From a virus, in the IMG/VR virus record IMGVR_UViG_3300021142_001969, positions 1-51,610 of that record: a stretch of DNA of 51,610 bases; one strand, given 5' to 3'. Each line of letters begins with the position of its first letter. Position 1 is the first letter of the stretch. The notes under the pieces are model-generated. The model ran no database searches. It saw only the letters and a list, made by a program, of their open reading frames with translations, and was not told where the DNA came from. Shown one piece after another: positions 4,945 through 47,936 of this stretch. Made by a program: the position numbers and the translations under genes.

Positions 4945-5172
4945 ATGCCACAATTAAAACTTTTCATCAATAACTATTTACAGCCGTACGCAAAGATGAA
5001 TATTGATTTTGACGACTGCGAAACACTAATCGAAAGAGAAGAGCATTGTAAGGATGTTGCCACATTGCTTTATTGGCAATATGCACCAAAAATACATAGC
5101 CTGAAACTTGATTGTACTGTTTATCTATACCATGAAAGTAAAATGAACGATAAAAATTTTATAACCAAATAA
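4945..5172 (+). CDS. Hypothetical protein, 75 aa
   Basis: Not recognised. The protein is mixed alpha/beta in appearance, with an aromatic-rich middle (LLYWQYAP) and an acidic N-terminal half. It starts two bases after the loader stop and lies in the replication operon, so it is cotranscribed with it. No signal peptide or membrane segment is visible. Confidence 0.6.
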   Translation: MPQLKLFINNYLQPYAKMNIDFDDCETLIEREEHCKDVATLLYWQYAPKIHSLKLDCTVYLYHESKMNDKNFITK

Positions 5173-5180
5173 ATAATAAA

Positions 5181-5528
5181 ATGAGTAACTCAAATATTAT
5201 AAATGGAATTATTGAACTTAAAAAAGCAAAGGACTTATTTGAGGATGTTGTAAGGCAATCAGGTGATGGTACTAAATTAATAAGCAATGTGATTAAAAGG
5301 ATTGAACAAACTAAAAATGTATTTACTACATCTTCTTTGTTCCCTGACGTTGTTATTGAAGGTATCAGAAAAGAATGGGCTGCAGATAGTTTTACTGTGG
5401 ATGCTATTACTGAAAAGATAGCATTACTATCACCAGAGCAGCGCGAAGCAATTGAAAATGTAATTGATAAAGTCCTGGAAGGAGAGAGTTTAGAAATTGA
5501 ATATCACGAAAATAAAGATAATGGCTAA
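5181..5528 (+). CDS. Hypothetical helical protein, 115 aa
   Basis: Not recognised. It is largely helical and acidic at the C-terminus (EGESLEIEYHENKDNG). The last eight bases overlap the start of the DUF1064 nuclease gene, which suggests translational coupling. The replication/recombination neighbourhood suggests a DNA-metabolism accessory, but nothing in the sequence shows it directly. Confidence 0.6.
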   Translation: MSNSNIINGIIELKKAKDLFEDVVRQSGDGTKLISNVIKRIEQTKNVFTTSSLFPDVVIEGIRKEWAADSFTVDAITEKIALLSPEQREAIENVIDKVLEGESLEIEYHENKDNG

Positions 5529-40497: not shown

Positions 40498-41679
40498 CTA
40501 AAACTTATTCCCTACAGCTCTTAATCTCTGATGTATTCTTTCTTTTTCACCAACTGCATAGTGAGCCATGGTTACAACCGTTGTAGTATGTCCAGCCATG
40601 CTAGCTGCTGCCTGTAAATCTAATATTGCTGCAGTCTCATCCAGATTCAAATGTTTAAGGCTGTAGAAGTCTGCTGTAATGCCTAATGGCTTTTTAACTA
40701 ACCGGTACCATCTTTTAGTTATTTGAATTGGGGTAATAGGTAGTGCTCCTGGTTTTAAATCGTAACTAAATATATAATCTCCATCTTTTGAATTTTGGAC
40801 AGAATTAGTCCAAAAGGGTAAAGCCACATCTTTTATAACCTTCATTACTTCTTTCCTGCTCCTACCCTTCTTAACAACTATTTTAAACCGTTGGTTCTTT
40901 AAATCAACATCTTCTTTTTTAATAAGTAGTAGTTCGCTAATTCTTGCGCCTGAATGGAAGAAGATTTGTAAGAAGTTCCAAAATGTAGGATATTTACTTT
41001 CCACATGATCGGTAACCATCTTTCGTTCTTTCTCGGTTAGAGTAGTCCTTATTTTCTTCAGCACTTCTTTTTTAGCTATCCCAATAATCGGATTAAACTC
41101 CATCGCCTCCAGTTCTACCAGCTCTTTAAAAATGATAGACATATACTTCCGGTAATTATTGAAAGTATTATTACTCCAATTGTTCTTACCTCCTAAGTAG
41201 TCAAAGATGGCGCGAATATGTTTGCGCTTGATTTCTCCTATTTGGACCATATCATAGCGAAGTTTTTTAGCTCCAGTTTCGAAGTGCCGGAACATTCCGA
41301 CAATCCCCTGCCTGGTCTTAGGTTCTAAAGTCAGCTTATCGAGAGCTTTGGCCATCGCTTCCAAAAGATAAATCCGGGGGTTAATTTCTTCCTCGCTTGC
41401 AATTATTCCAGTTATAGGGTTATAGCCAGATAAGAGTAAGGAAAGCTCATTATCGATTAATATTTGGGTATCGCTCCTTCTATCTTCCCTGGTCTTGGAG
41501 CTGTTCATCCCTTTAATGATCTTCAGCTTAGGCGCAATCTTACCATTTTTTAAAATTGTTGGGTCGTAGAACCGGTATTGAATATACCAGTCTTTGCTTG
41601 TGGTAGCTCTTAATGTTTTCCAATTTGTCGGGTTAACCTTCAATTCCGAGCAATAACATCCATTAGGTAGTTGTATCAT
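40498..41679 (-). CDS. int: Tyrosine recombinase (phage integrase)
   Basis: The 393-residue integrase has an arm-binding N-terminal part, a SAM-like core-binding region (about 100-200) and a catalytic domain with Arg246 in HSGARISELLLI, a beta-hairpin Lys (VVKKGRSRKE, 268-277), His364 in MAGHTTT and nucleophile Tyr374 in HYAVGE. The box that is normally H-x-x-R reads Y339-S-L-K342, so Arg is replaced by Lys and His by Tyr. It inserts the phage at a tRNA-Arg(TCT) gene; attP lies 107 bases upstream, and an arm-type repeat starts only 14 bases before its ATG, so binding may also control its expression. Confidence 0.9.
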   Translation of the reverse strand: MIQLPNGCYCSELKVNPTNWKTLRATTSKDWYIQYRFYDPTILKNGKIAPKLKIIKGMNSSKTREDRRSDTQILIDNELSLLLSGYNPITGIIASEEEINPRIYLLEAMAKALDKLTLEPKTRQGIVGMFRHFETGAKKLRYDMVQIGEIKRKHIRAIFDYLGGKNNWSNNTFNNYRKYMSIIFKELVELEAMEFNPIIGIAKKEVLKKIRTTLTEKERKMVTDHVESKYPTFWNFLQIFFHSGARISELLLIKKEDVDLKNQRFKIVVKKGRSRKEVMKVIKDVALPFWTNSVQNSKDGDYIFSYDLKPGALPITPIQITKRWYRLVKKPLGITADFYSLKHLNLDETAAILDLQAAASMAGHTTTVVTMAHYAVGEKERIHQRLRAVGNKF

Positions 41680-42942: not shown

Positions 42943-43599
42943 TTAAGTTCTCTTGTTTAACCAGCCATGAATTAGCCAGATATTCTTTATCTTATCCTTT
43001 GGTAATTCAAAATCATCATATAGCTCATTCTCCGACTTTAATAAGAAGTGTGTTTGCTCCTTCTTGCTTCTTCTGATATATTTCAGATATCGTCTATTAT
43101 CAATACACACTATACCATAAATCTGACCATATTCCAAGTGACTCATCCAGTCCTCAATCTTAGTGGCAAATACTATACTTCCACTTTTTATAGTTGGCTC
43201 CATGCTGTCGCCATAAGCTCGGAACGAAATAGTTCCTCTAAATTCGGGTATGTCCATTGTATAGGCTGATTGGATCATTTGGGTATCATCGTAAAACTCA
43301 ATAGCATTACCAGCAGAAAAGTCAGCATCTATAAATTGTATCTCATTTTTATTACTACCGCTTAATTTTTTACTATGTAACTTCTCGTGGAAAGTTTGAG
43401 TATTTACATTTGTTTCAATATTCAAATCTTCATTAAACATTTGTTTCCATTTCAAGTAAAACTCAGTTTTTGGGTTTCTATCCCCTCTTTCATATAGCCC
43501 ATATAACTGGCTTGAAATGCCTAATTTTATTGACATTTCAGACTTTGATAACCCTAATAAAGCCCTTTTATTTGCTATATTCACACTTACTATACTCAT
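42943..43599 (-). CDS. CI/LexA-like repressor (HTH plus S24 peptidase)
   Basis: The 218-residue repressor has an N-terminal XRE-type HTH (about 5-50, KSEMSIKLGISSQLYGLYERG) and a C-terminal S24 domain. The self-cleavage site is A96-G97 in DADFSAGNA; the catalytic pair is Ser132 in YGDSMEPT and Lys173 in YLKYIRR. RecA filaments formed after DNA damage would trigger its cleavage and induction. It is read leftward from the shared control region and leads a four-gene operon with the membrane, DUF4468 and HTH genes. Confidence 0.9.
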   Translation of the reverse strand: MSIVSVNIANKRALLGLSKSEMSIKLGISSQLYGLYERGDRNPKTEFYLKWKQMFNEDLNIETNVNTQTFHEKLHSKKLSGSNKNEIQFIDADFSAGNAIEFYDDTQMIQSAYTMDIPEFRGTISFRAYGDSMEPTIKSGSIVFATKIEDWMSHLEYGQIYGIVCIDNRRYLKYIRRSKKEQTHFLLKSENELYDDFELPKDKIKNIWLIHGWLNKRT

Positions 43600-43640: not shown

Positions 43641-43680
43641 AAACATTTGTTTTGCTGTACGAAACATTTGTTTATATTTG
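43641..43680 (+). promoter_or_regulatory. Early rightward promoter with two operators
   Basis: AAACATTTGTTT occurs at 43641-43652 and 43662-43673, exactly 21 bp apart (two helical turns). Each is an AAACA/TGTTT inverted repeat. TTTG (43651-43654) and TATATTTG (43673-43680) are 18 bases apart and form a good promoter. Repressor bound to both sites would cover -33 and touch -7. Confidence 0.75.
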
Positions 43681-43707
43681 CAATGTGTTACAAAGTTACA
43701 ACAAAAT

Positions 43708-43923
43708 ATGAGAATAGCAAATAACAGACAATTAGTTTTAAAAGAGTACTCCGATAAGTTGTTAGCTATCAGGGATTATGTTGAAGGTAAAGACATTATT
43801 CAGGCAGCGGCTAAGGTCGGGGTTGATAAAGTGACAGTTTACAGATACATAAAAGGAGAAGGTAAGAAGCATTTAATAGCTAAGAAGATTTATAATGCTT
43901 TAAGCCCACTAGCTAAAAACTAA
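43708..43923 (+). CDS. Cro-like HTH protein, 71 aa
   Basis: The protein has an HTH (DIIQAAAKVGVDKVTVYRYIKGEG, about 29-52) and is the first gene rightward from the operators, divergent to the repressor. The ATG at 43708 lies 28 bases after the -7 box; a TTG upstream is inside the promoter and is rejected. It likely represses the lysogeny promoter. Confidence 0.65.
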   Translation: MRIANNRQLVLKEYSDKLLAIRDYVEGKDIIQAAAKVGVDKVTVYRYIKGEGKKHLIAKKIYNALSPLAKN

Positions 43924-45205: not shown

Positions 45206-45430
45206 TTCTTACTAAGAGTTTTTCATATGGCAAGCAATCGTTAACCGCCCTGAGGTTTTTACCTGTAAGGGCTTAATTTAAAAATAGTTCATTGAAGATA
45301 TATTCATCCGTCATTATGTTGAATTGTGGTAGTAAGCGGATAGGACCACAGCCAAGCCCCTACGGCTTATCACGGGAAAACAATTTCCAGAAAGGGGCGA
45401 AATCGTGACAGCCTGGAAAGACAGGCAATA
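45206..45430 (+). ncRNA. Structured, gene-free region 5' of the tRNA
   Basis: No gene is visible here. A hairpin follows the acidic gene (GCCCT/AGGGC 45247-45272 with inner AGGT/ACCT). From 45325 come TGTGGT/ACCACA (45325-45350), AAGCC/GGCTT (45354-45368), GGAAA/TTTCC (45375-45388), TCACG/CGTGA (45370-45408) and GCCTG/CAGGC (45411-45426). GCCCCT (45356-45361) can also pair with AGGGGC (45393-45398), which would cross TCACG/CGTGA as a pseudoknot. The density of exact helices is far above that of neighbouring DNA. Confidence 0.55.
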
Positions 45431-45431
45431 T

Positions 45432-45505
45432 AGCAGGGTGGAGCAGTTGGTTAGCTCAGTAGTCTCATAATCTACAAGTCGCTGGTTCGAGTCCAGCCCC
45501 TGCAA
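45432..45505 (+). tRNA. tRNA with CAT anticodon (Met, initiator-like)
   Basis: A full 74-nt cloverleaf: acceptor 45432-45438/45498-45504 with an A1-A72 mismatch and six good pairs, U8, D-arm GAGC/GCTC with A11-U24, G18 G19, anticodon loop CTCATAA, T-arm GCTGG/CCAGC with TTCGAGT loop, discriminator A. The 1-72 mismatch and A11-U24 are marks of initiator tRNA. The three G-C pairs of initiator anticodon stems are absent and 31-39 is T-T. CCA is not encoded. Confidence 0.85.
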
Positions 45506-45670
45506 CACAACCGGGTAACCGGATAGTAAGCAAAGAGAGATAACTCTATAAAACTGACAAGAACGGAAAGACGTACGACCCTATGGAGGTACATATCCAT
45601 AGTCCCTACGGTTGAGCCGTAAGCATAGATGCAGGGCGCTCTGGTATTGGCTTTAATACTTAGTTCTTAT
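45506..45670 (+). ncRNA. Structured, gene-free region 3' of the tRNA
   Basis: No gene is visible here. Exact helices: CCGG-GTAA-CCGG (45511-45522, a GNRA tetraloop), CTATGGA/TCCATAG (45581-45602), TACGG/CCGTA (45607-45621) and AAGAAC/GTTCTT (45559-45668). ACGGAA (45563-45568) can also pair with TTCCGT (45674-45679) of the next element, so two folds compete. A GGTTG and CGTAAG pair of motifs (45610-45623) resembles the hairpin 1 sequence of elements B and C. Confidence 0.5.
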
Positions 45671-45748
45671 CCCTTCCGTAGTTCACGGCAGTAACTGAAA
45701 AGATATTTCAAAGTAGGTTGACAAGAAACGATAAGCGGAAGGTTTTTT
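45671..45748 (+). ncRNA. Structured RNA element A
   Basis: Closing stem CCTTCCG (45672-45678) with CGGAAGG (45736-45742) and a tail of six T. Inside are AGTT/AACT (45680-45696) and TGAAA/TTTCA (45696-45710) hairpins. A 57-base interior is too long for a simple terminator. Same plan as elements B and C. Confidence 0.55.
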
Positions 45749-45757
45749 AAAACATTT

Positions 45758-45853
45758 AAGCAGGTTGCGCTAACTCGTAAGAATAGCGGTGAATAGACGG
45801 GCAGTTATTTAGCGACAACTGAATCGGATAAAACTTCGAACAACCTGCTTTTT
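45758..45853 (+). ncRNA. Structured RNA element B
   Basis: Closing stem AAGCAGGTTG (45758-45767) with CAACCTGCTT (45841-45850), ten perfect pairs, then a T-tail. Hairpin 1 is CGCTA/TAGCG (45768-45788) capped by C-GTAA-G; hairpin 2 is CAGTT/AACTG (45802-45821). CGCTAA can alternatively pair with TTAGCG (45809-45814), crossing hairpin 2. Ends 12 bases before the next ATG. Confidence 0.65.
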
Positions 45854-45865
45854 AAAATAAAAGTA

Positions 45866-46144
45866 ATGATTGATAAAATTGAAATAACACTCTCTGAAAG
45901 CGGATTTATAAACGTAAATATTGGTGACGTTCATTTTATGCACTCAAATGATACTGGTGAAGTGCTATTAAATATAGCTGCTGCCATTAAGAAGTTAGCG
46001 TATTTCCCAAAAGGAAAGCATGAAAGCACAATGCCTATAACATACGAGGAATTTAAGAATAGATATAAAAAAACAAAAGTGGTTGCTCCTACCCGTAAGG
46101 ATGGAGGCATAAGTACAGAGAGTTCTAAAGAGCTTTCTAATTAA
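45866..46144 (+). CDS. Hypothetical protein, 92 aa, whose 3' end forms an RNA element
   Basis: Not recognised. Beta-rich N-terminal half (DKIEITLSESGFINVNIGDV), a helix (LLNIAAAIKKLAYF) and a basic end. Its last 70 bases double as part of RNA element C, so the coding and RNA functions overlap. Confidence 0.55.
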   Translation: MIDKIEITLSESGFINVNIGDVHFMHSNDTGEVLLNIAAAIKKLAYFPKGKHESTMPITYEEFKNRYKKTKVVAPTRKDGGISTESSKELSN

Positions 46145-46165
46145 ACGACGGACAGCCACTTTTTT
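46076..46165 (+). ncRNA. Structured RNA element C (overlaps gene end)
   Basis: Closing stem AAAGTGGTTG (46076-46085) with CAGCCACTTT (46153-46162; one T-G pair) and T-tail. Hairpin 1 is CTCC/GGAG plus CC/GG (46086-46106) capped by C-GTAA-G; hairpin 2 is a nine-pair AGAGAGTTC/GAGCTTTCT stem. Compared with element B, pairs at three closing-stem positions and three hairpin 1 positions differ but stay complementary. Confidence 0.65.
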
Positions 46166-46177
46166 AAAATAGACTAT

Positions 46178-46384
46178 ATGAATTTAACGACTAAACAAAA
46201 GCAATTTATCAGACTTAACTCAAACAGACCAGCGTCAATGATAGCTAAGGATTTGGGAATAGATGATAAGAAGATTGTAGAAGACTATCAGAAAGAAAGT
46301 AGAAAGAGAAATGTGTTTGATATTATGTGCCCAATCACCGGACACAAACTGATTCATAACAAGAAAGTAAAAGAATTGAATTGA
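46178..46384 (+). CDS. Small HTH-like protein, 68 aa
   Basis: The N-terminal part (TTKQKQFIRLNSNRPASMIAKDLGIDDKKIVEDYQ in parts) has the form of a helix-turn-helix with ASMIAKDLGI as the turn region. A basic tail with MCPITGHKL follows. Possible regulator; no named family. Confidence 0.5.
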   Translation: MNLTTKQKQFIRLNSNRPASMIAKDLGIDDKKIVEDYQKESRKRNVFDIMCPITGHKLIHNKKVKELN

Positions 46385-46927: not shown

Positions 46928-46948
46928 GCCGCTGCTACGAACAGCGGC
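46928..46948 (-). terminator. Perfect hairpin before recT, terminator on the minus strand
   Basis: GCCGCTG (46928-46934) and CAGCGGC (46942-46948) pair perfectly. On the minus strand the stem is followed by six T, a textbook terminator. On the plus strand no T-run follows, so there it is only a leader hairpin. No minus-strand gene lies to its right. Confidence 0.6.
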
Positions 46949-46979: not shown

Positions 46980-47936
46980 ATGAGTACAAATGTAGGAAAA
47001 GTTGGCTTAGTTCAAAAATTAGAACAATCAAGCCCAGTGCAGATAGTAAATCTGCCAGAAGTTGCTAATAGGTTTAAAGACCTATATGCCATCATGAATG
47101 GCGGCAACAATAAGACAGCCGAATTAAAATATGAGGCAGAAAAGTTTCACTTCGCTAAGCTGATTCAGGATAATAAACCATTACAGGAGTGCACCAAGCT
47201 TTCTCTGTATGGATGCTTCCTGGACATGGCGGTAAATGGCTTATCATTTGATACAGCGATGAAGCACGCTTATGTAGTTGCTATGGGCGCAAATGTTGGT
47301 ACTAAAGATAATCCTAAGTGGGAAAAGAGAGCTACACTGATGGTGTCTGGTTACGGTGAGCTTCATATCCGTACAGCTCAGGGTCAGATAAAATATGCTG
47401 ACAATCCAATTATCGTGTATGAAGGTGATATGTTTAAGCATGGCACCAAGGATGGTAAAGTATTTCTGGAGCACGTTGCTGAATTCCCACGCAAGACAGA
47501 CAATATTATTGCCTGCTATATCAGACTGGAGCGTCCGGATGGAACGGTTGATTACAAGGTATTATCTATTGAGGAAATTATGAAGTTGAAGAAGTTCAGC
47601 AAGGATCCTAATAGTAAAGCCTGGACAGATGGATTGCCGGGAATGGTTCAGGCAAAGACGATTAAGCACGCTTTTCGTTCATATCCTAAAGTGAAACTTG
47701 GACAGTTCTCACAACTACAATCTGAAACTATTGATGTAGTGCCTGAAAGAGTAATTGATTATGGTATTGAAGAAGCTGAATTGCCATCAGCTACTGGAAC
47801 ATTCACACCGGTAATGGTAGTTGAACCGGTAAAGCCGCAGCAAGTTAATCAGCCACCAGTTAATGATGATGAATTTGCACAACCACAACAGCAGGCTTCA
47901 GCTAATTCAGTTACTCATTCAGATGATGATTTTTAA
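46980..47936 (+). CDS. recT: RecT-family single-strand annealing protein
   Basis: The 318-residue protein matches RecT: KLSLYGCFLDMAVNGLSFD, KHAYVVAMGANVG, ATLMVSGYGELHIRTAQGQI and GLPGMVQAKTIKHAFRSYP. An acidic, Gln/Pro-rich C-terminal tail (NDDEFAQPQQQ, SDDDF at the end) is of the type used to contact single-strand-binding proteins. It anneals complementary strands after end resection by the RecE-like nuclease at 49364. Used in phage recombination, replication restart and genome circularisation. Confidence 0.88.
   Translation: MSTNVGKVGLVQKLEQSSPVQIVNLPEVANRFKDLYAIMNGGNNKTAELKYEAEKFHFAKLIQDNKPLQECTKLSLYGCFLDMAVNGLSFDTAMKHAYVVAMGANVGTKDNPKWEKRATLMVSGYGELHIRTAQGQIKYADNPIIVYEGDMFKHGTKDGKVFLEHVAEFPRKTDNIIACYIRLERPDGTVDYKVLSIEEIMKLKKFSKDPNSKAWTDGLPGMVQAKTIKHAFRSYPKVKLGQFSQLQSETIDVVPERVIDYGIEEAELPSATGTFTPVMVVEPVKPQQVNQPPVNDDEFAQPQQQASANSVTHSDDDF

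Follow-up and report, generated by a model that had tools for sequence, protein, structure and literature searches.

Two diverged copies of a terminator-like element with structured loops bracket a small gene in a probable early phage operon

In an intrinsic (Rho-independent) terminator, a stem stands directly before a T tract, at the border of a gene. In a phage moron, a small extra gene has its own promoter in front and a terminator behind. The GOLLD and ROOL RNAs are phage RNAs that are associated with tRNA genes. Their structures have been described (PMC12286853). In lambdoid phages and mobile elements, successive terminators after a single promoter lead to graded expression or require antitermination (PMC9378689, PMC11658703). 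The put RNAs of HK022 occur in early phage operons as two similar copies of ~70 nt with two stem-loops, and they render the polymerase resistant to termination (PMC9378689).

We analysed a 51.6-kb stretch of a temperate phage with a Bacteroidota-type host (the window), in which three elements on the + strand invite comparison with these systems. Element A (45671–45748) has an 8-bp closing stem (45672–45679/45735–45742) around a 55-nt loop, followed by T6 and AAAA. The closing stems of element B (45758–45853) and element C (46076–46165) are each 10 bp long (45758–45767/45841–45850 and 46076–46085/46153–46162) and enclose loops of 73 and 67 nt, respectively. Within each of these two loops lie a hairpin 1 (45768–45788 in B, 46086–46106 in C) and a hairpin 2 (about 45802–45821 in B, 46117–46138 in C), and both elements end in a T tail and AAAA. 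A sequence-only reading had proposed this anatomy, and our scan for stems followed by T-runs returned the same coordinates: A, B and C were its complete output between 43600 and 48000. Because dinucleotide-shuffled whole windows yield only 0–4 such large-loop sites per 51.6 kb (+ strand), the clustering of three within 500 bases is not due to chance.

The three elements share with intrinsic terminators a stem that runs directly into a T tract (T5–T6) and a location at gene borders. Unlike those terminators, they have loops of 55–73 nt, and in B and C the loop holds hairpins whose fold is conserved between the two copies. The earlier reading had set the elements apart from terminators on account of their long interiors; the loops are indeed atypical, but the contrast was drawn too strongly, as the stems lead straight into T-runs and the same operon in related phages holds plain terminators with the same tail. 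B and C resemble the put RNAs of HK022 as paired, similar copies in an early operon, but differ in having an enclosing stem and a T tract, which would act with the opposite sign; the T tract thus argues against a put RNA of the HK022 type. As in a moron, a small extra gene here has a terminator-like element behind it; unlike in a moron, such copies flank the gene on both sides, and no promoter of its own matching the Bacteroidota consensus was found before it. A–C also resemble GOLLD and ROOL in being structured phage RNA close to a tRNA gene, but those RNAs are far larger, and A–C match them at no Rfam threshold.

We found that B and C align over ~100 columns with a score of 44, compared to 40 for the best of 3000 shuffles. 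All 16 pairs shared between the two closing stems and first hairpins are kept, with 6 of the 16 changed on both sides and one turned into G-U. The double-sided changes fall in hairpin 1 (columns 15–33, 17–31 and 21–28) and in the closing stem (columns 6–94, 7–93 and 8–92), exactly the six that had been listed from the sequence, and the conservation of pairing is lost when one strand is shifted by 1–3 columns. The paired changes were matched by 9 of 500 shuffles and come from only two copies; they are good, but not conclusive, evidence for a maintained fold. If A19 pairs with U30 and base 18 is bulged, which is one reading of the alignment, hairpin 1 gains one more pair common to both. Conservation extends to unpaired bases, namely the linker AAAC..CG.ACA and the GTAA loop of hairpin 1, a GNRA tetraloop kept within its C-G closing pair as originally observed.

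By these sequence comparisons, B and C are diverged copies of one element, and their fold is probably maintained. The same does not hold for A, whose core has no significant sequence similarity to that of B or C, so that the proposed family of three loses one member. A has the outer plan of B and C (closing stem, T-run and AAAA) with an interior that is not alike, and is best described as their terminator-like neighbour, unrelated in sequence.

Compared to shuffled sequences, the folding z-scores are −2.5 for B, −3.2 for C and only −1.1 for A. The interior of A folds worse than its shuffles (z +0.7) and that of B no better than its shuffles (z −0.1), and interior stability therefore failed as evidence of structure in both; the claim for B and C stands on covariation, not on energy. 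A selected RNA fold had been suggested for all three; similarity and paired changes support it for B and C, and it is not confirmed for A.

Our searches for further copies covered several sources. In comparisons with Rfam (release 15) at gathering thresholds and at relaxed ones, the window's tRNA was the sole match and A, B and C remained without a named family, in keeping with the earlier impression that no named phage RNA has this layout; a distant DNA comparison with a phage database likewise gave tRNA matches alone. A tRNA-like fold for B was considered and dropped, as ARAGORN and the Rfam tRNA model recognised only 45432–45506. A covariance model built from B and C found B and C only among 51 sources (the window and 50 other loci), and, under strict filters, no real homologue in 398 genomes from a single order of Bacteroidota, where seven weak matches (E 2.5e-4 to 0.1) proved to be a plain hairpin or chance matches. 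In IMG/VR, the exact hairpin-1 pattern had no match, the linker-plus-tail pattern occurred in seven stretches and the loop-linker pattern in one, none of which the model scored. These sources, which may lack near relatives of this phage, thus yielded no homologue with covarying pairs, the outcome that the earlier reading had named as counting against it; a conserved RNA family would have several such homologues in independent genomes. Because neither the model nor the patterns gave a homologue, B and C are so far a two-copy family private to this phage and not yet an RNA class.

The elements lie between the lysogeny genes, an integrase (40498–41679, minus strand) and a CI-like repressor (42943–43599, minus strand), and RecT (46980–47936). 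Using the Bacteroidota promoter consensus (TTTG, TAnnTTTG; PMC7366714), we found a single perfect + strand match between 42.9 and 47.5 kb, a candidate early rightward promoter at 43651–43680 (TTTG-N18-TATATTTG), and no other from 43680 to 47.5 kb even with one mismatch allowed, in a scan whose consensus is known chiefly from Bacteroides and Flavobacterium and which other promoter types could escape. Because the scan gave no other + strand promoter, A, B and C most likely share one early rightward operon. A perfect divergent promoter lies on the minus strand (43691–43721), and the two together (43651–43721) separate the repressor from the early genes in the manner of a PL/PR-like switch region. 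Upstream of A, the + strand carries motif M (45217–45283), in which ATATGGCAAGCAATCGT is followed by a hairpin terminator, and then a tRNA-Met (CAT) gene (45432–45506, identified by ARAGORN and the Rfam tRNA model). Some 390 noncoding bases surround this tRNA (45280–45670); the predicted fold pairs its two flanks, and the 3′ flank appears partly alignable to the closest relative, L002 (RecT 88%). At the tRNA's position, which is also occupied by a tRNA in L013, L002 (~5012–5074) and L015 (~1404–1463) carry shortened tRNA-like sequences with an acceptor stem and T arm, and without normal D and anticodon arms.

We compared the early block across relatives identified by RecT (L002–L004 and L008–L015). 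The tail CTTTTTAAAA follows ordinary hairpins in several of them, and the tail of A, B and C, TTTTTAAAA, also ends ordinary hairpin terminators of these relatives in the same stretch. Across the window and eight relatives, AAAA follows 8 of 30 stem-preceded T-runs, compared to 42 of 882 others (odds ratio 7, p = 1e-4), and at least 7 of these 8 sites belong to the early block that precedes RecT. Just before A, the window shares TTAGTTCTTA with L002, which continues with a plain hairpin terminator (~5165–5199) ending in TTTTTTAAAAC at the equivalent position. Therefore, A occupies a terminator's place, and since the plain hairpins of relatives share their tail, B and C bear the tail of a terminator. 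Immediately before RecT, a hairpin in the window (46928–46948) has its T tract on the minus strand, and hairpins occupy this position in L002, L004 and L008 as well.

We consider it probable, at about 0.6, that A, B and C are intrinsic-terminator elements of the early rightward operon with enlarged loops. Their outer stem would be the terminator stem, and the loop of B and C would have expanded into a conserved head of two hairpins. Transcripts begun in the divergent promoter region, at ~43650, would cross the small early genes and meet terminators in series (M, A, B and C), each of which would free a fraction of the polymerases, provide a 3′ end for the preceding RNA and set the dose of the following gene. 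B would dose ORF 45866–46144 and C would dose ORF 46178–46384, and this setting would be bypassed if the polymerase were made resistant. The two copies would thereby bracket a small accessory gene, their head fold kept by paired changes. The anatomy, the B/C homology, the paired changes, the tail and position shared with relatives' terminators and the reading frame running into C are seen directly; termination, partial read-through and any function of the heads we infer.

The bracketed gene, a 92-aa ORF (45866–46144, + strand), begins with an ATG 12 nt after B and has its stop codon (46142–46144) inside C, which spans its final codons and thus does overlap a gene end, as had been pointed out. 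The only relative found, in L005, ends in ...EEFKKQNRIK, while the window's protein reaches ...EEFKNRYKK and then has 23 further residues, in essence a translation of element C. Because the L005 homologue terminates at the residue where C begins, we conclude that the window's gene reads through C. At its other end, the start codon of the L005 homologue overlaps the preceding gene, where the window has B. The gene looks like a module placed between two copies of the element. No relatives were found for the next small protein.

B and C go beyond what termination by itself accounts for, because a bare terminator needs no conserved hairpin 1, GTAA loop or linker. One alternative, implied by the earlier reading, is that B and C, and perhaps A, are discrete trans-acting small RNAs, each with its own terminator. 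A structured body with a 3′ terminator, the non-coding nature of B and the conserved hairpin 1 with its GNRA loop would all fit, and intra-operonic small RNAs processed from longer transcripts offer a precedent in Bacteroides (PMC7366714). However, no Bacteroidota-type promoter was found between 43680 and C, including immediately before A, B or C; processing would be needed to make the 5′ ends, C lies partly within a gene, and the searches found no homologues. Mainly because of the missing promoter, we judge standalone small RNAs less likely than terminator elements, and unlikely in themselves.

It is more doubtful still that B and C are regulated terminators, whose closing stem would be stabilised or opened when the head binds a protein or ligand, with ORF 45866 and ORF 46178 gated in this way. 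The paired changes in hairpin 1 and the conserved unpaired GTAA and AAAC..CG.ACA exceed what a terminator needs, and B ends 12 nt ahead of an ATG. The loop of A also contains AAGTAGGTTG (45711–45720, + strand), which differs from the 5′ arm of B by one base and could form 10 bp with the 3′ terminator strand of B. This site was picked post hoc as one of three like it in the window, including B's own arm, and its pairing has probability 0 in the predicted fold, so that no mutually exclusive fold is predicted; it is possibly an alternative pairing partner or a relic. Only two copies are at hand, with neither a clue to a ligand nor an Rfam match. That a class of phage gated terminators with a folded receptor domain in the loop exists, with B and C as its first two representatives, is a slim prospect; if so, binding of a protein or ligand would directly set termination before a phage gene.

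Least probable of all are DNA-level repeats at the ends of a gene-swapping module, folding as attC-like single-stranded DNA or serving only as recombination homology: the copies do bracket one small gene and C starts exactly at the end of the L005 protein, but compensatory pairs and a T tail suit RNA better, and both boxes of an integron attC site (GTTRRRY and RYYYAAC) are missing from B and C.

B and C are thus, as far as their sequences tell, real and structurally maintained terminator-like copies. If their heads are functional, they show terminators gaining structured loops within the early operon of a phage, and suggest that early transcription in Bacteroidota phages passes through serial terminators. 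Such an arrangement would require an antitermination system, and to our knowledge none has been described for these phages so far.

A larger point concerns motif M, a conserved 3′-end RNA element common to host genomes and other phages, and thereby shared between hosts and phages of one Bacteroidota family. Its sequence, noted in the window, L079 and L140–L144, takes the forms TTTTTCATATGGCAAGCAATCGT with a hairpin and ATATRGCAAGCAATCGT with a UUCU-loop terminator, with a conserved part of 17 nt. In IMG/VR, 37 stretches contain the exact 17-mer, and with the single exception of L041 they have one layout: the motif, a hairpin whose tetraloop is usually UUCU with a U-A closing pair, and mostly a T run. 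The stem covaries strongly; of the four pairs in the model, three show changes on both sides in 12–24 of 51 sequences. No Rfam family matches M, and we found no relevant paper on its sequence in the open literature. Across the phylum, a model of M has matches in 8 genomes out of 296; in one family, presumably the Chitinophagaceae, it has them in 134 out of 197, with up to 10 per genome.

The host copies lie 3′ of small lipoprotein genes or end tandem units of ~400–900 bp that hold no credible genes. Several units have TATATTTG, a TAnnTTTG promoter, ~95–110 nt upstream of M. Because gene-poor tandem units, upstream promoters and a shared M end form the layout of a small-RNA array, the units look like candidate small-RNA genes that share one 3′ module. 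M merits separate study. Upstream of M in L143 and L144, some unit bodies contain extra copies of GCAAGCAATCG, and in some cases GTTAGAGGCC comes next.
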